Positions 10,275 to 45,090 of a DNA stretch of 64,000 nucleotides are shown here, piece after piece. The stretch's first letter is position 1. Each line of letters starts with the position of its first letter. The position numbers and the translations under genes were made by a program. The DNA comes from Absidia repens (lineage: Eukaryota; Mucoromycota; Mucoromycetes; Mucorales; Cunninghamellaceae), in the NCBI GenBank assembly GCA_002105175.1, contig MCGE01000002.1, forward strand, positions 248,001 to 312,000. The letters are read 5' to 3'. The notes beneath the pieces are model-generated. The model was not told the origin of the DNA. It did not search any database and was given only the letters and a program-made list of their open reading frames with translations.

Positions 10275-11450
10275 ATGGGGGCGGAGAAGGAAGGTGTGGA
10301 CCACTTGTGAACGGTGGTTTTTAGTATAGTCCTTTCTCTTTCCCTTTATTGAATTTATAGAAATAGCTTCATTAGTTTAGAAGAAGAAAAATAGTAACGT
10401 TTGATGTTGTTTTACTTCAATAAAGAAAAAAAAATCAATCAATCAATCAACAGAACTCGTCGTTGTTTTATTTTCACAACCATGCTTGGCTTGTACTAGA
10501 CTGATTTGGCCGATCGGGATTCAGAGGAGGGGAGGTCATTGTTTTAGTTTGATGAGTCAACGGTGTATGGGGAAAGGGGGACGGGAACATATGTATATGG
10601 TTGGGCGTATGTGTGTAGGTCTTGATAGAAATATTTATTTATGGTATGTAGGACAACGTTTGTGTAGTGGCTATGTAAACCTATTTAAAAGAGTGACCAT
10701 CACTTGACAAGCTCAAGGTCAAGAATAAACTGCACTCTAACACACACAAGTCTATTTTTTGGTGCTTGCAGATGATCTCTTTGTTTTTATCAAATCAATC
10801 AATCAATCAATCAATAACCCCTCCCTTCTTCTTTAACTCCATCCATTGTTTCCTCTTAATGTCTTCTTTTTTATTTATTTTTTATTTTTATTTATTTTTG
10901 ACTGACATGATTGACCCATTAAAAAATAAAACCACGACAACCGATCAAGTCTTACCATTCAGGCACCGCCTATTTTTTGAAAGGGTCGCTATGAATCCTT
11001 TGTTTGACTCATTGACGTACTATAGTAAGTCACACCAGGGTTCATATACATTATGCTACCTGGCATTCGTTTGGCTTTTCAGTGATTTTTTTGTATGGTA
11101 CTATACACAATGAAAATATTGAACTATATATATAAGGTACAACCAGTAAAGTGGAAGCTATATTATTTTATAGGGGAAAGGTACACTAGTGGTCCGGTCT
11201 AGGTTGAGTAATATGAATGGTAAAGGGAAGAATAGAGATTTTATATCGACTAGGCACTGGAAATCAGTAGCTGAAGCCCTAGGGAGTGGGGGGAGTAAAT
11301 TGAAAGCAGGTATTTGATAGTACACTCACCAAATAGCCACAATAACGAATTTGCTCATTGTATAATGGGTTAGAGGGTTTATAATAAAAGGACATATTTT
11401 ATTCGAAAGAGTACGGTAGATACTAAGCTAAGGTTGGGTTCATCTGGGAG
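10275..11450. other. gene-poor region with poly(A) signal and AATC repeats
   Basis: An AATAAAG poly(A) signal for the LYR gene lies at about 10419. Two short (AATC)n runs are at about 10433-10452 and 10792-10814. Around 11380-11436 a fragment resembling part of the dispersed repeat described next is visible (ACATATTTTATTC and ACTAAGCTAA). No supported gene. Confidence 0.55.
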
Positions 11451-11893
11451 TCTACTGGAGGTAGCATGAGCGAGACTAATAGGAGGTCTGAAGGATGGCC
11501 AACGCTAATTTAAATGGACTACTGCGAAGAGTAATGTAATATATTGTATTCTACACGGCACAAAGAAAAGACTGATGGGATATCATTTATTTGAATCATA
11601 CCAACAGTCAACATTAACCTAACGGAGCGCCGGCAAAACGATCATCTATTGCTCAAGACATGAGAGAGACTAGTAAGACATTTTTTATTGAAGGAAGTTA
11701 AAATATATATATATTATTCAGAAGTGGATACAAAACTATGACAAACTAAGCTAATGAAGGCTTCAAAAAGCCAACGAATGGGGGATGCTAAATCCTGAAT
11801 CCAAAATGAAAGGGTTTCCCCATGCATCTTATAATCCCTGAGATGAAACCCCTTCTAAACTAGTCCTAACGCTAATCTAAGTCCAACATAATC
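11451..11893 (+). repeat. dispersed repeat, copy 1 (longest)
   Basis: The copy begins TCTACTGGAGGTAGCATGAG and ends near CGCTAATCTAAGTCCAAC. It matches copy 2 (44652-44998, same strand) over most of its length, and copy 3 (40560-40796, opposite strand) over its right half. Shared blocks include GACTAGTAAGACATTTTT, ACAAACTAAGCTAAT, and AAATGAAAGGGTT...TGCATCTTRTAAT. Relative to copy 2 it carries about 100 nt extra near 11550-11650. There is no ORF. It lies 340-780 nt beyond the 3' end of the Fanzor gene. It may be an element end or a non-autonomous element. Confidence 0.8.
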
Positions 11894-12230
11894 CCTAGAG
11901 GTGACAAATGTGAAAAATTAAAGAAAAAAAAGAGAGACGGAGAGTCGTGGGGAAAAGAGTTCAGTGTACAGCTTGGGTATTTGCAATGGTTCAACTTGAA
12001 TTTGAGACGGAGTGTAAAATGGTTTTAGACGATGGCAAAATAAAGTTGGGAAGGGAAGTAAAATAAATTGGGATGAAGGGAAAAGGTAATTTGGACAGGA
12101 GGCAAAAGTAGGTGAGACAAACAGGTGAGCCAAGATGAGAGTAAAGGAAAGTGTGAGTCCAATGAAATATCTTTGTGTTTCATTTTCTTGTAACTTACGT
12201 GTATACATCAACACATATTTGTTATGTGGA
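11894..12230. other. 3' flank of the Fanzor gene, candidate guide-RNA (omega RNA) region
   Basis: This 337-nt stretch lies immediately downstream of the Fanzor stop codon on the minus strand. In TnpB/Fanzor loci the guide RNA is usually encoded over the ORF 3' end and the adjacent downstream DNA, so this is where one would be expected. On the plus strand it is purine-rich. I could not demonstrate a structure by eye. Confidence 0.3.
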
Positions 12231-13156
12231 TTATTGTTCAGTGGTCGGTCTTGCCAACAGCCCAGGGCGTCTTCCAGCAGTGACAAGGTTCATAAAAGCG
12301 GCGCGCAGATTCCGAGATGCATTGGTGTCCCGTTGCCACACAGTGTTACAGCGACGACACGCTAACACTGCGTACATACGTTTCGCCTGTTCACCAGGTC
12401 GGGTAATCACCGCGTTCGTGAGCTTTCTGTGACCACATTTTGAGCATACTTGCGACGTACGATATTCATCCATATTCACAAAAACAAGTTTCCCAGACTT
12501 GTCCGCCTTTGACAAAAGATGTCGACACTTGTCAGCAAGGGATCCTTCGCCTTTTTTGTTTCTGCCGAACTTTGCGTCGCCGAAAACCACAATCGGTACC
12601 TTGTCTTTGTCATTGTTTATGGGAGCCTTTTTCCATTTCCTATGTATCAGAAATATGTACAACAGATGTTATTATGCCTTGCATATACATTTTTAAATTA
12701 AATAAACTTGCCTAAGCTTCGGCGGCGGCGGAGGAAGAGGAGGTGGATCATCAGTATCGTAAGACCTTGTTCGTCGTCGTCTTCTTTGTTGTGTCTGGCC
12801 AATATTTGATGATCTTTCCATGGCACCTGGTGGAGGTCTGTACTTGTGGCCGCCATCAATCAACACATTTACCAATTCGGCGTCCATCTTTTGTCTTCCT
12901 TGGTAATTGGCGAACTGCAGACCGAGAATAGCCTCTTGCCCATAAAATTCAGTCAAAGGACTTAGCGCTTGTAATGATGATTGAATGTATGCCTGTATCC
13001 CTTCCAAATCAGTGGTTTTGTTTGTCGTTATTTGCGCCTCCACAGTTCGAATTGCCTCAGTTTTCAATATGTTGATTTTGTTGGACGTTTTTCTGAAGCC
13101 TGCACGAGTATAATATTCGATAGAGGATATACGTCGAATTTCAAGACCTTAACACA

Positions 13157-13209
<53 letters not shown>

Positions 13210-16200
13210 TTAGAATGTCGTCTGTCTGCCATTAGATGTCCTTTTCAATTACTCTCTTGTTCGTGGTCAGTATCGACTTGAGCATCAGCATCAGCGTGGG
13301 CGGCAATATCAGCGTGGGCGGCAACATCAGCGTGGGCGGCATCATCAGCGTGGGCGGCAATATCAGCGTGGGCGGCAATATCAGCGTGGGCGGCATCATC
13401 ATCTTGGGCGGCATCATCATCTTGGGCAGCTCCTAGCAACGATATTAGTAAATAAACCAAAGAAAAAAGAAAAAGTCAATACATAAACAATAGTTCTTGT
13501 AGTAAACCACCATAGCCACTTACCCTCCTGTTCCACTGCGTAATTGTAAACGTCATCACTTGAACCATTGCTAGCCACATAGATTGAATTCATGCCAGGA
13601 TCTACACCCCACACATTCAAATACGGGAATTCCCACGCTTGGAAGTCTTCAGGTTGCAAATCAGGAAGAGCAGCATCATTTCGAATCGGCTTGTCGAAAG
13701 GGATTGATACAGAAAATCCGTTCGTCACGATGTACTTTGCAAATATCATCCCATTCCCTTTTCTGATTTTGTCAACGTTGAGGATGTTCGTCAATGTTTC
13801 ATCGCCATGGATATATTGTGTGAGGCCCACTGATCGAAGGATTTGCCCCATGGATATGTTGTCGATTTTGATGCTTTTCTTTGTATAGGACGGTTTCGGC
13901 ACCAAGTTGTAAACTTGTTGCTTTTTCATCAAGTGATCGACTTCAGGTGTAAAGCATATTGGTAACAAATCCTGGTGGTGTTCAGGGTCCTGTAAGTATT
14001 CAACAGAATGAAGAATTTGCTGGCGAGTGTTGGCGATGGTGTTTTGTAAGGATGTAAATGACAAGTCCGACAGGTACGATAATTGTTGGCGGTCAAGGTT
14101 GTCGTTTGTCGGTATAATTTGTTGTATTGTTTTTGCCAATTTTGACCGTCGGCGTCGACCTATTCTTGAGTTTTCATCAAGTCCACGTACTACTTCAAAG
14201 CACCAAGTGCGAGGAACTACGGTCTGTACTGGGTTTACTGCATTTGCGGTGTCGATATTGTGTTGGTCAAAAGCGCGGACAATGTTATAACCATACTTCG
14301 TGAAGATATCGCAATGGCGAGAAATATATGCAGTTGACAGTTGCGTAGTCGAATTGTCTAGCAATGTTGCCGGTGCCCCCGCCTGTTGACAATAGTTGAT
14401 CAAATTATTCAGCAAATGACGATTTCCAAGTTGATCGTTGTCGAAGTATTGTCGTTGAGCTTCCAAAAATTGGCGATGTGGGTTGGTGTATGTATCCTGA
14501 CGAGCGCCGAGATCATCAAGTAAGGGCCGTACCTCCATAATAGCAAGATCCAAGGAGTCAAGAAGTTCTTGCGTTTCCTGGTTGATGTTATCTGCGCCAT
14601 CCACTTGCTGTTCCATCATCGTTTGCAAAGATGTCATCACACCGTTCACCATGCTGTCATTCCATCGTTCGTCGTTTAGCTGGTGTTGAAAACCGAAGTG
14701 ATTTGAGACATTCAATAGCAATTGGGTTGAAGCTTGGTACAGACGAAGCAGTTCCTGGAGTCTGGTGGATAATTGGATCAAAGAGGCAACAATCGTGGGA
14801 TCCATGGCTTCCGCTACTTCGGTTGACATTGTTCCAATTCTTGAGATAGTGATTGTGATGACTGACCGAAGGCCGGTTTCCCTGTTCATGATACGTCCAT
14901 GAAGAACACCGTATGCATTTTCAACTTCTTTTCCAAGTGAATCAGTTTGTTCTTGTAGAGCAGCCATATTATAAACACACAAAAGGTCCACTTTCCCATC
15001 ATCTAGTACAGCATTTACATCGTCTTTTATTTCGTCAGTAATGCCAGGTTGAGACAAAGCATCAGAAGACACGATTGCAATATCCGCATTGTTGACCAGA
15101 CTTGCTAGGATGTGAAGCCCCAATACGTTGCAAGTTTTTTCAATCGAATCCTATGAATACAATACATGGCGGTAAGTATCAAACATTGACCTCTGTATAC
15201 TTTTATTGTATTGTATTACTTACCTTTTGTTGTTCCTGTTCTAATATTTGTTCTTCAGGATCCTGCTGCTGGAGAAGTTGCTGTTGCTGTTGTTGTTGAT
15301 GCTGTTGGTTCTGGCGTTGCACCATTCGCTGACGAAGACGTAAAGAAAATAAATTTGACATCCACTGCGTAAAGTCCTCAACAATTCGATTTGTAAATTT
15401 TGTCGCATATTGGGCCAACATTGGAGTCAGAATACTCGCATACGCTTTTCCATGAATTTTTCGTACAAGAAAAGCTTGTCGGGACGCTTCTGTTGGATTC
15501 AGTTGCTGATACACATTGTCGATATTCGTCGCCAAATCCATGCTGATTGAATTGTTGATGGTGATGTTGCTGCCAGTGACTTGTTGAAAGATAGCATAAA
15601 AAAAACTCATCGTAAAGAGCTGTTTTGGTATGGGTTGGTGGTTCGTCAAAGAGTGATATAGATAAAATGTAATAAATAGGTGCACTTTTATGACTGTATC
15701 CGAGTGTACGAAACAACGTCGCTGATTCCCTGTAGAATTTGTTGATGATGATCCTGGTTTTCAATCCGCAGCAATGATTTCAGTCCCTGTTTCCGGCAAA
15801 CCGTCGTCGTTTTACCCAATTCTTGTTGTACTTGTTGTAGTCGAGTCTGTTTCCGGAAGGGGCATTTTCGATTTGTTGATCGTGAATGAGTGGTTGCTGT
15901 TTCAAAGCTACGATGTTCAAGGCAAACCGGGCAAGAACGGACTGATTGCTTTTGACCAAGTTTTTTTCGCATTAAAGAGCCACCCCGTTTGGCCACCTTT
16001 TCGAGAGTACCTTGTTTGCGCTTACGCTTGGACCCAGCTAACTGTCTTGAAGTTGAGCCGCGAGTTGATAATGAGGAGGCATCACCGTCGCTGTTATCAC
16101 TGTCGGTGTCATCATCGTTTTCCGCACGTCTTTGTTCATCTTCAGCTTTTTGTGTAAAAAAAGAAAGATTAGTAAGATTACCTTGTTTCTCATACTAATT

Positions 16201-16377
16201 TGTTTAGCACTTACCATGACGCAGGTTCGCTTGCTGTCGTTTCCACCGTTTTTTGTACATAATGATATCAAAAACTGTCATTCCTTCATAAGTTGTTAGG
16301 GGTTGAATAACATCATCCTGTGTCATATCCATCAATCTAAGCAAGTCATCCTCGATAATCAATTGATTGGCGGCCAT
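12231..16377 (-). CDS. Fanzor / TnpB-like RNA-guided endonuclease (OMEGA family), one apparent frameshift
   Basis: Seven minus-strand exons are proposed: 16377-16215, 16145 to about 15691, about 15691-15224, 15150-13524, 13432-13253, 13147-12712 and 12639-12231, giving about 1,245 codons. Visible parts: an N-terminal CPVC...H...RKCPF zinc-like cluster; helical middle; RuvC-I as WGVDPGMNSIYVAS; RuvC-II strand VPIVVFGDAKF; the Fanzor marker NMDEYRTSQVCSKCG; zinc ribbon completed by ACRRCNTVW; RuvC-III QRDTNASRN; and the typical end GRRPGLLARP. The family cuts DNA under guidance of an RNA made from its own locus. All junctions agree in phase except one: between RIQ and IKVHLF near 15691 a single base appears missing. 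The last intron is GC-AG (AG|GCAAGT at 12712). A Gln-rich run sits near 15250-15320. Function today is uncertain because of the frameshift. Confidence 0.82.
13282..13432. repeat. 18-bp tandem repeat inside the Fanzor gene
   Basis: About eight copies of an 18-bp unit (plus strand GCGTGGGCGGCAATATCA with variants) fill almost the whole fifth Fanzor exon. In the Fanzor frame they encode hexapeptides of the type AAHADI, with AAQDDD variants at the start. Because the unit is a multiple of three, expansion keeps the frame. It lies directly after the RuvC-I motif. Confidence 0.9.
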
Positions 16378-16939
16378 ACTGATGATAGGGACCTGGAGGT
16401 ATTGGTGTTTGTTAAAAAGAAAAGAAAACAAAACGCTGTTGCGGCTAAATTTGTGATTTTAGTCCAACTGGATTGTTCCTTGGGCGGAATTTGAAATGAC
16501 TTGTTCCTGAATCGGACAAAAATAGAATTGAGAGTAGTGAGCACCAGAACTTTTGTAGATAAAGTCCAACTGTAGAGAAAGTTTATAAAAAATAAACTTG
16601 AAAGAGTAAAATAAAATAAAAAAGAAAAGTATTGACCTTTGTTGGTTCAATAAAAATAAGTGTATAACACACAGTAAAAATAAAAAAGAGGACTTGTAGT
16701 CACAAAAAATAAAAGAAAGTTTCTATATAGACGATAGAAACAAAATAAAAATAAGACAGTGGTTTGGTGGTTAAAAGCCTTTGTACTGAATTTTATAAAA
16801 AAGATTGAGATAAATATATGATAATAGATAGCTTAAGAAAAAAGAGAATTGGCGGGGGAAAGGTGGGGTATTTATACTAAAAAATAAAGTGGCGGCGAGT
16901 ACTGAACGTGATAAAAAAATATAAAAATAAAAATGATGA
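16378..16939. other. upstream region of the Fanzor gene
   Basis: AT-rich DNA with many A runs. A GCGGAATTTGAAAT motif is at 16484-16497, about 107 nt upstream of the proposed Fanzor start, and near-identical motifs occur at 18525 and 26467. I see no further gene. An in-frame open stretch extends from the Fanzor start back to 16431. Confidence 0.45.
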
Positions 16940-17196
16940 TCGACCAGTATCCTAGACCGGATAGGAAATCAGCGGCTTCCTGTTTTCGTCCAGTTCGATA
17001 CTTGATTTCAAAGTCATATTCAGCCAAGTATTGGATCCATCTTGCTACAATACCAGATACTTTGGGTGATTGTACCAACCATCGTAAAGGTGAGTGGTCT
17101 GATATGACAGTGAATTTTTTGCCAAGTAAATAAGGCCTGAATAGTTGCAGGCTCCATACTAGGGCGAGACATTCCAATTTAGTAGCACCGTAGTTT
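16940..17196 (-). pseudogene. Ty3/gypsy retrotransposon RNase H fragment
   Basis: On the minus strand the frame reads NYGATKLECLALVWSLQLF, then RPYLLGKKFTVISDHSPLRWL, then ARWIQYLAEYDFEIKYRTGRKQ and ADFLSGL. This is the RNase H-like part of a Ty3/gypsy reverse transcriptase: the ECLALVW and TDH-like SDHSPLRWL motifs and the spacing to the NxxADxLS-like end (AADFLSG) are diagnostic. No reverse transcriptase core or integrase is found on either side, and no LTRs are evident, so this is a relic of roughly 85 residues. It lies next to the Fanzor gene in the same orientation. Confidence 0.88.
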
Positions 17197-17427
17197 TGTT
17201 GTCAATGGAAGATTCAGTTGATTTATATTGTTACAAATATACCCCAATCAGCCAATAGAGGAAGATATTGTATGAGTCATCTTTTTACAAACACCCCATT
17301 TCCCCTCCTCCCCGTTCATACGAGTATTCACAAATACAACATGTCTACTGTGAGTATTTCTCTTCCACAACACAACGCTACTATACCCTACAAAGCAATA
17401 TAATACATACTCTACAAAAACAAATCA

Positions 17428-17545
17428 ACACATACCCTACAAACAACACAACATATACCCTACAAACAACACAACATATATCCTACAAACAACACAACAT
17501 ATACCCTACAAACAACACAACATATACCCTACAATATATAACAAC
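17428..17545. repeat. minisatellite, about 23-bp unit, 4-5 copies
   Basis: The unit AACACAACATATACCCTACA plus AAC repeats in direct tandem with few changes, bordered by decayed copies on both sides. There are no unique spacers, so this is not a CRISPR array. Confidence 0.85.
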
Positions 17546-17878
17546 ACATATCCCTCAAAGAATAGTATATTTAACACGAAAACAACACACGTATTCCACA
17601 AAAACAGCGTACACAAATATTTTTTCAAATGTGATTTTCTTTATTGCAGTGACATGATAAAATAGACGGTAATAGTAAAATAAGAGACAATATACTGTAT
17701 AGTAACATATAAGAGATGAAGAGGATACTAACATTGCCTTCAACAAAACAGTACACTCATACTATTCTCTTATAGCACAATCTCCCCTGTTTCATACTGA
17801 AATGCTGCTGCGTCCGAGGTGATTATGGCATATCTTTGCTTCTGTTGGAGGAAGCTCCCCCAGAAGCTATTTAGTAGT

Positions 17879-17917
<39 letters not shown>

Positions 17918-18099
17918 CTGAAGTAAAAATGTGGAAGTGTTTCGAATGTTGCGTACAAAAAAAGAGACAGGTAACATCATCATCATCAAACAAAAAAGTC
18001 ATTTGGTTGGTTTCAATAGAAGATAGATTTTATTTATTTGTAATACCACAAGAGTACATACCAGCCAAAAAAAAAAAAAAAAAAAAAAAGTCCTGACTG

Positions 18100-18170
18100 A
18101 GCGCTGAACAACGACGGATGGGCCCCAAGGGGCTGCCCACCAAAGTGCGAAAGGGCGGAGGCTTTAATCC
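18100..18170. repeat. candidate short repeat centred on CCCCAAGGGG (copy A)
   Basis: The segment GCGCTGAACAACGACGG...CCCCAAGGGG...CCCACC resembles GCGCTGAGCAATGTAGG...CCCCAAGGGG...GCACCC at about 41942-41992. The central decamer is a palindrome. The match is short, so common ancestry is only suggested. Confidence 0.4.
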
Positions 18171-18517
18171 TATCCCATCAAAACCCACACTTTAATAAAA
18201 AAAACTGTGACACCCTGTAAATCGAAAGATTTCCAAAAGCTCCAGCGGAGCGCCAGAGCGTTTATTAATTTAATATACTTAAAGAAAGAGGGGTAAACCA
18301 TTAGGCACGTAAAAACATATTGGGAGAGGTGTCTTCAAAAAGAGATCGGTTTAAAATAAAATATACGATTGTCTAAACCATATTATCATTTAGTCTAAAC
18401 TATGTTGAATAAAATGTCCAAAATTGAAAGCTGAATCGTCTCGAGCGGAGTTTATTCTCGTCTAAAAAAAAAAGGAAAACGTCTCAAGTTCAACCGGAAA
18501 ACCTGTAAACAAAAATT

Positions 18518-40459: not shown

Positions 40460-40559
40460 AATCATTTATTTTTTCCCAAATTTTTTTTCCCCTCGCTCTC
40501 TTTCTTTCCATTTTCTTCTTTTTTTTTCTTCACCATTCAACTTCTTTGAGGTGATGTTG

Positions 40560-40796
40560 GACTTAGATTAGTGTCAGGATTAGTTTAGAAGGGATTTCAG
40601 ATCAGGGATTACAAGATGCATGGGGCAACCCTTGCATTTTGGATTCAAGATTTAACACCATTCGTTGGCTTTTGGAGTCTTCATTAGCTTAGTACAGTAT
40701 TAGTTGTCCATAGTTTGCTTCTACAACTGAATAAAAAATGTCTCATTTTGTATGCTTTAATTGAATCTGTCCCATTAGTCGCTTTCTCACGTCTTG
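40560..40796 (-). repeat. dispersed repeat, copy 3 (partial, inverted)
   Basis: Read on the minus strand this segment matches the right half of copies 1 and 2: GACTAAT-type start, the ATTCAGTTG block, AGCTAATGAAG, AAAAGCCAACGAATGG, AAATGCAAGGGTT, TGCATCTTGTAATCCCTGA and the end CACTAATCTAAGTCC. It is diverged by many substitutions. Confidence 0.75.
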
Positions 40797-42606
40797 TGTG
40801 TAATAGATTTTTTTTTTCTTTTTTTTACCATCACCCCTTTTTGATTAGTGTTGCTTATGTTGCGTTTCAATAAAGTATATCCCTGTCGTCTTTCTTATGC
40901 CTTGTATATATGAGATCCCTTTTTAAAGTAGATCTTTTATATTTATGTTGACAATTCGTCGCATCTCCTGTTACTCTCCCTTATGCTATCTATATTAGAC
41001 CCCATTTTGCCCTTTTGACCTTCGTAGTATTTTTTTTTTTTTTTTTTTTTTTTTTTGCTTATGCTTCAATAAAATATATCCTCATGATATGAACTAAATA
41101 GTGTGCCATAGATAAAGATAAATTCCGGTGAGACTTGGGTGAGAATATTTGAACGACTAGCGTTACTTTGTTGGTATGGTGCGCCTAGCGGGCGTGCTTC
41201 AATCTACTTCCAATAGCTATTGTGAAACCATCTGATTGTCAATGGTGGAGGATTTAAAAATAAGAACTCTGTTACAGGTAACACGTGTGTATGATAATTT
41301 CATGAAGTCTTTGAAGATACTGTATAAAGGATGCAGCAGCTTATGGATCCTTTTACAAACACTGTGTAGAGCAGGATCAGTATTTTTTCACTGCTGATTG
41401 ATATTCAGCTCTACCATTTTTGAAAAATTCCCTCCAGTTCGCTTATTTCAATAAAAAGGCTTTCCAGCCAAAATATCCAAACGTCAGCCGACTTTGAATG
41501 CTTGTAACTGACGCTTTTTTTTTCGCAAGACATAGAGACAACTAAACTTCAGTAAACTTTCCTGGCGGCGCTAAAAATGAAGACGTGCATCATAATAAAG
41601 CTGTTTTTATTTTTGTACACATACTGGACTTTTTTTTCTTGATGTGTCTATAATGTGAGTGGCTTTATTTTATTTTGTTTTTATGTCGACAATATGAGGC
41701 TACCTTTTGGGGGGGAGTACCGTCTACGATGGTGGGGGGTGGGGTTTCGACTTTGGCCGAATAAACATAAATAAACAGCAGATAGTAAACAAAGGTGAAA
41801 GCAAATGGGTGATAAAAATAAAATAGGTTTTATTTAGTGGAAGTCGATATCATAACAATTTCTATGACTACAAAATGAAATAAAGTTTTTTTCAAATGAT
41901 TATGAGGATTTTATTTGCGACTGCTTCATTGGGGCGACGACGCGCTGAGCAATGTAGGTTGCACCCCAAGGGGTACGCACCCGGGATGGAACAGTGTGGC
42001 TAGTCTAAACAAAAAAAAAATATCATGGATGAATCAGGTTCATTCACAAGCAAGGTACATATGTCCTCAATAAAGAATTTACAGCGTACGTTAGAAAAGT
42101 CTATCAATTAAAGTTGGCCTAAAGTAAATAAAATACAAGATATATCTATTAATAAGTACTCATATGTGATAATGCCCCAGTATTTTAACAACGAAAACAC
42201 AATAGAAAAGAAAAAAAGTTTGGTTTTTATTGCGAATATCAAGTGAGTAGTGTAAAATATATAAAATAAAATCAATCTATTTCAGAATTGCAAGTAACCT
42301 TGACCACGCTAAACTAATCCTCGAAGTAACAATAGAGTCGAGCCATACCAAAAAGCGGATCGCCCATTACCGGTAAGATCGACGACAGGCCATCCTTCTT
42401 TTATGATTGCTTTCCCTAGAAATAAGCAAGAGTAACAAAAAAAATCAACCAACCTGGAGGCAACAGGCGTCCTAAAGCACTTCCATACATGTAGGGAAAA
42501 AAAAAAAAAAAAAAAAAGAGGGGAAGGGAAATGTTTTTATTATGAAAGATAAGATAAAAATATATACTACTAAATACTAAATAATACTACGTTCATTGTC
42601 GCTTGT
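40797..42606. other. gene-free stretch with decayed repeats
   Basis: Two similar segments, CTTATGTTGCGTTTCAATAA at about 40855 and CTTATGCTTCAATAAAATAT at about 41059, suggest an old local duplication of about 200 nt. A T run is at about 41031-41056. The CCCCAAGGGG-centred copy B is at about 41942-41992. An A run is at 42499-42519. No gene is supported. Confidence 0.5.
41942..41992. repeat. candidate short repeat centred on CCCCAAGGGG (copy B)
   Basis: See copy A at 18100-18170. The shared part begins GCGCTGARCAAYG and continues to the palindromic CCCCAAGGGG and a C-rich end. Confidence 0.4.
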
Positions 42607-44651: not shown

Positions 44652-44998
44652 TCTACTGGAGGTAGCATGAGCGAGACTTGTAGGAATTCTGAAGAATGGT
44701 CAACATGGATCTAAGGGTACTACTGTAAAAAATAATATACTACATTGTACTCCGCAAGACATGAGCGAGACTAGTAAGACATTTTTCATTAAAGCAAATA
44801 AGAAGAGACATGTTTTATTCAGTTGTATGTACAAACTATGGACAAACTGATACCAAACTAAGCTAATCAAGGCTACGAAAAGCCAACTAATGGGTGGGCA
44901 TAAATCCTGAATTCAAAATGAAAGGGTTCCTAATGCATCTTGTAATCTCTAATCTGAAACCTCTTCCAAACTAGTCTTGGCACTAATCTAATATCACC
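44652..44998 (+). repeat. dispersed repeat, copy 2
   Basis: Begins TCTACTGGAGGTAGCATGAG like copy 1 and ends GGCACTAATCTAATATCACC. The inner motif GCAAGACATGAGCGAGACTA parallels copy 1, but the 100-nt insert of copy 1 is absent. Similarity by eye is high at both ends. No ORF. Confidence 0.85.
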
Positions 44999-45090
44999 AT
45001 ATATATGAAGTCGAATGATGAAAAAAAAAAAAAAAAAAGGAAGAGTGCGAAAAAATAAAAAAGGCGGGGGTAAATAAAAAAAAAAAATTC

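Follow-up and report, generated by a model that had tools for sequence, protein, structure and literature searches.

We are interested here in a minus-strand gene of the fungus Absidia repens, which a first-pass annotation had read as a large Fanzor nuclease. Is it a Fanzor, of which class, what carries it, and can this copy still make its protein? In the window, that is, the whole stretch of 64,000 nucleotides that we analysed, the locus very probably holds a Fanzor1 gene, damaged in this copy, that lies on a DNA transposon of the Tc1/mariner (IS630) type, a non-autonomous one. The host is a member of the Mucorales: a deoxyribose-phosphate aldolase encoded in the window has 93% identity to a protein without a name, and 90, 92 and 90% to the enzymes of Cunninghamella blakesleeana, Hesseltinella vesiculosa and Absidia cylindrospora.

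The Fanzor gene in the window

The gene runs on the minus strand from 16377 to 12231 and, in our splice model, comprises six exons that encode about 1,245 amino acids, in agreement with the estimate first given for it, about 1,245 codons. Exon 1 (16215..16377) is followed by exon 2 (15224..16145), whose product contains a zinc-knuckle-like motif, CPVC..HSR..CPF. Exon 3 (13524..15150) carries the RuvC-I motif VDPG at 13594-13605; exon 4 (13253..13432) encodes acidic six-residue repeats of the AAHADx/AAQDDD type; and exon 5 (12712..13147) leads to exon 6 (12231..12639), which contains DEYRTS with an alternative glutamate at 12465-12467, a C4 zinc ribbon, and an RD motif whose aspartate lies at 12327-12329. 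The motifs listed by the first-pass annotation are all found on this strand: first VDPG, whereupon the last exon supplies VVFGDAKFG and DEYRTS..C..C, then C..C with RDTNASRN. The C-terminal end that it had named is likewise there, as GRRPGLLARPTTEQ followed by a stop at 12231.

In the window copy, exon 2 is one base shorter than in other copies of the gene, so that it is frameshifted and the first stop falls at model codon 207. The gene is not intact, and the window copy cannot make the full Fanzor protein.

According to the splice model the first four introns are GT-AG and the last one is GC-AG. The GC-AG donor of the last intron (12712 / 12639 in the window) recurs in 11 of the 11 gene copies read. 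The number of acidic repeats in exon 4 varies among copies, in length steps of mostly 18 bp.

Assignment to Fanzor1

A profile search against the Fanzor/TnpB families, the check first suggested for this locus, returns a match. In Pfam, the last exon matches Cas12f1-like_TNB (PF07282), the TnpB/Fanzor nuclease domain, with E=8.5e-12 and 45.5 bits against a cut-off of 26.3. The motifs exceed what chance would give, by this match above a curated cut-off and by the recurrence of the last exon at 98-100% identity in 12 places in the genome. In Pfam, none of four frames taken from exons 2, 3 and 5 has a match above cut-off, and NCBIfam gives TnpB models, of IS200 and IS607 alike, only below their cut-offs.

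A search with the protein of an open sister copy (L013), in which 7,997 candidates were scored, finds two proteins of Cunninghamella blakesleeana, P0001 and P0002, the one at 35% identity over 92% of the query and the other at 33% over 87%; a profile search then adds P0003 of Halteromyces radiatus, with 40% identity over 71%. These three unnamed or uncharacterized proteins are the same long Fanzor. P0001 and P0003 share with the Absidia protein the N-terminal zinc-knuckle-like motif, and P0003 as annotated stops near the end of Absidia exon 3, without the zinc ribbon. PF07282 is above cut-off in P0001 and P0002 as well.

When the L013 protein is aligned with the two Cunninghamella homologues, D879 of DPG, E1168 of DEYRTS, C1175, C1178, C1204, C1207 and R1213-D1214 are invariant in all three. 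The motif order described for Fanzor in PMC3627910, D ... [TS][TS]-X-X-C4-X(5,50)-RD, is found in the L013 protein as D879, T1171 S1172, C1175 C1178 C1204 C1207, five residues, and R1213 D1214. The spacing from D to [TS] is 291 residues, compared with the 125-275 printed there in 2013, and the intervening acidic repeat of exon 4 varies among copies; we read the longer spacing as length variation and not as exclusion from Fanzor1.

The signature given for Fanzor in PMC10711439 is DPG in RuvC-I together with an alternative RuvC-II glutamate. DPG and E1168 are present in three of three sequences, and the FGDAKFG stretch, which we read as the putative canonical RuvC-II strand, is without glutamate, as are its aligned counterparts. 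The WED motif, TDG in the same source, is TNG in the Absidia protein and TDG in P0001, P0002 and P0003; this and the long D-to-[TS] spacing weigh against the assignment.

An unrelated zinc-ribbon protein might, in principle, show a RuvC-like pattern by chance, and there are weak matches to the zinc ribbons of RPB9 and transcription factor S. We give this explanation almost no credence: the order DPG, alternative Glu, TS, C4, RD is kept in the homologues, and PF07282 is above cut-off in the window exon, P0001 and P0002 alike.

Comparison with solved structures points to Fanzor1. A three-sequence profile ranks SpuFz1 of Spizellomyces punctatus (8gkh) first, with E=5.6e-6, followed by Cas12m at 0.0043 and TnpB at 0.23. 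It is with the profile only that SpuFz1 comes first: P0001 alone matches 8gkh with E=1, behind Cas12m at 0.023, and the last exon alone gives weak, mixed matches in the PDB, with no Fanzor at E<=1. In the profile alignment DEYRTS pairs with DEYKTS and QRD with NRD, and the WxRD stretch is aligned. The metal ligands of SpuFz1 are given as E541, D383, N385 and D606 (PMC10432273); judging from the motifs, E541 and D606 would be the residues aligned here.

The carrier transposon

The gene lies on the minus strand within a transposon of 6,537 bp (11969..18505), whose limits are marked by sharp homology edges in the aligned copies. Its left (5') terminal inverted repeat (TIR) of 26 bp, at 18480..18505, is defined by the aligned edges and by a genome pattern search; its right (3') TIR, at 11969..12009, has in the window copy an interruption of about 15 bp near the tip. 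TA target-site duplications flank the element on the left (18506..18507) and on the right (11967..11968). The left repeat, CAGGTTTTCCGGTTGAACTTGAGACG, and the right repeat, CAGCTTTTCAACTTGAATTTGAGACG, are alike at 21 of 26 positions and are TA-flanked. The combined pattern, with at most three mismatches, matches 26 times in the 47.4 Mb genome, and its reversed control not once. In five of 12 copies (L010, L011, L014, L018, L020) the right end has small insertions, deletions or substitutions at one spot just inside the terminal AAGCTG-TA, and the tip is kept.

The TIRs and the TA target duplication are features of Tc1/mariner (IS630) elements. Near the left end, at 18297..18359 on the plus strand, similarity to the genome's own transposase frames reveals a remnant of about 20 codons, the C-terminal tail of a DDE transposase of the IS630/Tc1 type. 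The same frames are resembled by the end of an open frame in two MITEs of 753 and 764 bp, L026 (C63:42093-42845) and L027 (C67:486393-487156), which have the left-type repeat at both ends. The resemblance is 49% over 37 amino acids and 58% over 26, and the L026 frame ends in the transposase tail. The genome's transposase frames are DDE_3 (PF13358), with E=2.2e-28 in the full-length L039, 4.6e-12 in L038 and 1.9e-9 in L036. It is the MITE frame that connects this tail with the element's ends, and its start looks helix-turn-helix-like to us; Pfam gives for this frame only a sub-cut-off match to Radical_SAM.

In the 6.5-kb form we find no transposase gene beyond this tail, and we therefore class the form as a non-autonomous derivative. 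A full transposase with matching ends did not turn up in our genome searches, which were non-exhaustive. Since the left end keeps the DDE tail, the element is probably a mariner-type transposon that has lost its transposase and is moved in trans.

IS607-type elements encode a serine recombinase and are not known to have TIRs. A Fanzor2 of such an element would account for the TnpB-type TNB domain, and the sub-cut-off NCBIfam matches include IS607 TnpB alongside IS200. The inverted repeats with TA duplications and the DDE tail, however, speak against it, as does the ranking of SpuFz1 as best profile match among solved structures, and Pfam finds no recombinase among six open frames of the element that were scanned. 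We consider a Fanzor2 highly improbable. The reading as a Fanzor1 is supported by the family match, by DPG with the alternative Glu, by the TA-duplicating inverted-repeat carrier, and by SpuFz1 as best solved match.

We also considered, and set aside, a 'giant' element of 22 kb on contig C32, with the left TIR at about 295 kb, the right TIR at about 273 kb and a helicase gene between them. Its right flank is that of C34 (99.6% over 2.76 kb) and its left flank differs, so recombination or an assembly error is possible. Contig C3 matches the region over 15.4 kb at 98.8%, up to the C3 contig end. Long versions on C32 and C3 (L023, L024, L025) have a Gypsy element and an open frame without Pfam match between the element ends; the C32 version has an AAA_11-type helicase gene there too.

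Gypsy pieces upstream of the gene

The first-pass annotation had placed the gene beside mobile-element debris. Such debris is indeed present, but part of it is the carrier itself, the 6.5-kb transposon, with three Gypsy pieces inside it, all in the direction of the Fanzor gene (minus strand). A Gypsy-type RNase H fragment (16930..17201; PF17917, RT_RNaseH, E=1.2e-18) is followed by an LTR-like block (16473..16926) and by a 40-bp leader piece (16437..16476) that is 100% identical to L023 and L025; the leader lies between the LTR-like block and the Fanzor start codon, and the pieces end 60 bp before that codon. The block is 98.5% identical over 454 bp to L030, and the stretches upstream of gag in L023 and L025 match it at 95% over 217 bp and 93% over 259 bp; its 217-bp part occurs twice on C32. 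These similarities suggest that the block is an LTR, and it may drive Fanzor expression. Block and leader are found upstream in 11 of 11 gene-bearing copies, in contrast to the SPu-1 element of Spizellomyces punctatus.

Relation to known systems

SPu-1, with its protein SpuFz1, resembles the Absidia element: each is a short inverted-repeat element that duplicates TA, carries a Fanzor1 gene and is present in many copies (PMC3627910, PMC10432273), and the two proteins share DEYxTS and the RD stretch in the profile alignment. The resemblance extends to Gypsy insertions in some loci and to Fanzor-less relatives, both described for Spizellomyces (PMC10432273). SpuFz1 has 633 amino acids in one reading frame and its element a 33-bp TIR, whereas the Absidia protein has about 1,245 amino acids from six exons and its element a 26-bp TIR. 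The RuvC-I Asp stands at 879 in Absidia and at 383 in SpuFz1: the extra length is mostly N-terminal, plus the acidic repeats.

Most Fanzor1 proteins have 600-700 amino acids (PMC11423790); that of Absidia, with its extended N-terminal region, is about twice the usual size. PpFz1 of Parasitella parasitica and its Rhizopus relatives with an FRI domain (PMC11423790) are, like it, Mucorales Fanzor1 proteins with a proline-containing extra sequence inside RuvC, whereas the Absidia extra is mostly N-terminal and in the acidic repeats. None of the matches listed in our PDB searches is named Parasitella.

The Fanzor1 genes of Mucor, Rhizopus and Phycomyces are described in MuDR-like elements with a 9-bp target-site duplication (PMC3627910). 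These too are Mucoromycota Fanzor1 genes in elements without transposase, but the Absidia element has Tc1/mariner-type ends and TA duplications instead. Mariner-type elements that carry Fanzor1, show TA duplications and lack a transposase were reported in 2013 (PMC3627910). The kind itself is thus already known, and what is new is a long Fanzor1 subfamily of Mucorales in this mariner-type carrier. Among the Fanzor literature matches listed, no paper on this subfamily appears by title; other surveys may include members.

Copies, selection and the 3' end

The last exon has 21 matches in the genome. They include the 12 places of 98-100% identity mentioned above and two others, more diverged, of 59 and 48%; PF07282 is above cut-off at 13 places, the 12 and one diverged. 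The element has multiplied recently, and its 12 copies are 98.06-100% identical over their common 3' kilobase. The gene is present in 11 of them, the twelfth (L012) missing most of it, and is open end to end in four under the same splice model: L010 (1,233 aa), L013 and L017 (1,245 aa) and L014 (1,251 aa). Disrupted, besides the window copy, are L009, L015, L016, L018, L019 and L020; in L015, L018 and L019 one exon edge has no match within three mismatches. With exon 4 left out, dN/dS among the four open copies is 0.40-0.51 in five of six pairs; the closest pair, with only seven differing sites, gives 0.71. These ratios suggest mild constraint and are not proof of function.

From the stop codon to the element end there are about 260 nt, and this 3' noncoding region (11969..12230, minus strand) shares blocks with L021 and L022, whose degenerate last exons have 61 and 47% protein identity. 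The best 20-base match of the L013 3' region is 18 to L021 and 17 to L022; the best of 20 plain shuffles reach 17 and 15, which makes this a modest control. A guide RNA from the 3' end would be expected from the family, and the region is a candidate source of such an omega RNA. Taken as a whole, the region is less stably folded than shuffles are on average (z +0.89); for its last 76-101 nt z lies between -0.8 and -1.7, again no convincing fold; and Rfam at gathering thresholds finds in the window only a tRNA elsewhere.

It is conceivable that Fanzor1 is a passenger here, its guided nuclease function lost in every copy, and that the copies are a decaying burst moved only by a foreign transposase. 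The disruption of the gene in seven of 11 copies, the 3' end without a convincing RNA fold and the failure to find a transposase are all in keeping with this. Four open copies, dN/dS below 1 in six of six pairs, and the near-identity of the 12 copies over the 3' kilobase argue against it, and we regard it as a minority possibility, unlikely but deserving of weight.

Insertion sites and a possible role for guided cutting

Of the 17 left ends, we use 12, leaving out the four ends of the two MITEs (3/4 WWTA) and a decayed one without TA (L032). Eight of the 12 come from Fanzor-bearing copies, all eight with WWTA; one, on C32, is doubtful, and on C47, C5 and C38 the gene was not seen. WWTA is found in 11 of the 12 left flanks (background 0.43), with A at the first place in 10. 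The right ends give 13 rows, or 11 distinct flanks, since L009 recurs in the C32 row and has its flank in common with L015; TAWW occurs in three of these 11. The left flanks give p=6e-4 for WWTA, and Fisher's test of left versus right gives 0.003, the test having been chosen after looking and left uncorrected. The asymmetry is TAM-like.

Except in L016 and L019, thus in 10 of the 12 copies, there is homology beside the element to one abundant repeat, for which a first look gives 3,240 candidates in the genome, 40 of them scored. Because L009 and L015 have a common right flank, this corresponds to nine of 11 distinct sites. The repeat is about 500 bp long, lies in the window at 11400-11975 (the element's flank), 40485-41003 and 44652-45041, and often has the head CCGCCCACGTGAATTTT. 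By eye, the head reads CCGC(C/A)CACGTG in six of seven unoccupied repeat copies inspected and is a variant in the seventh. Compared with shuffled flanks, it stands out in five of 12 element copies (L010, L011, L012, L015, L018), 6-44 bp from the element. It is not above shuffles in L013 and L017 (29 and 38 bp) or in L020 (140 bp), and is not seen in the available flanks of L009, L014, L016 and L019. Precise homing to one base is rejected, because the insertion points differ among copies.

A preference of the transposase alone explains the association with the repeat, without any role for Fanzor; to give guided cutting a part in it is bolder.

For the life of the element itself we favour the following course. 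With a transposase provided in trans, it would be cut and pasted at TA sites. Intact copies would produce the Fanzor protein, its expression perhaps driven by the Gypsy LTR-like block upstream. An RNA from the 3' end, reaching about 15 nt into the right flank, would then guide this protein to the donor site once emptied, or to the allelic one, beside 5'-(A/T)(A/T)TA. The cut would be repaired from the filled copy, so that the element would be kept or would gain copies. The bolder reading goes further: guided cutting beside the left-flank WWTA (mostly A-W-T-A) would re-install the element at repeat copies that had been emptied or are related, and an LTR-driven, double-sized Mucorales Fanzor1 would spread in a homing-like manner. 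We think it a long shot. If true, it would mean that Fanzor shapes where its carrier persists, with copies concentrated beside one abundant repeat.

Since this recent burst includes broken as well as open copies, and provides 11 distinct right flanks as would-be guides and a predicted TAM, WWTA, both guide use and donor-site cutting are testable. SPu-1 differs in its TAM, CATA, with a conserved CA before the left repeat; joining the accounts in PMC3627910 and PMC10432273, we take the SpuFz1 TAM to be that CA plus the TA, likewise a motif of the left flank.
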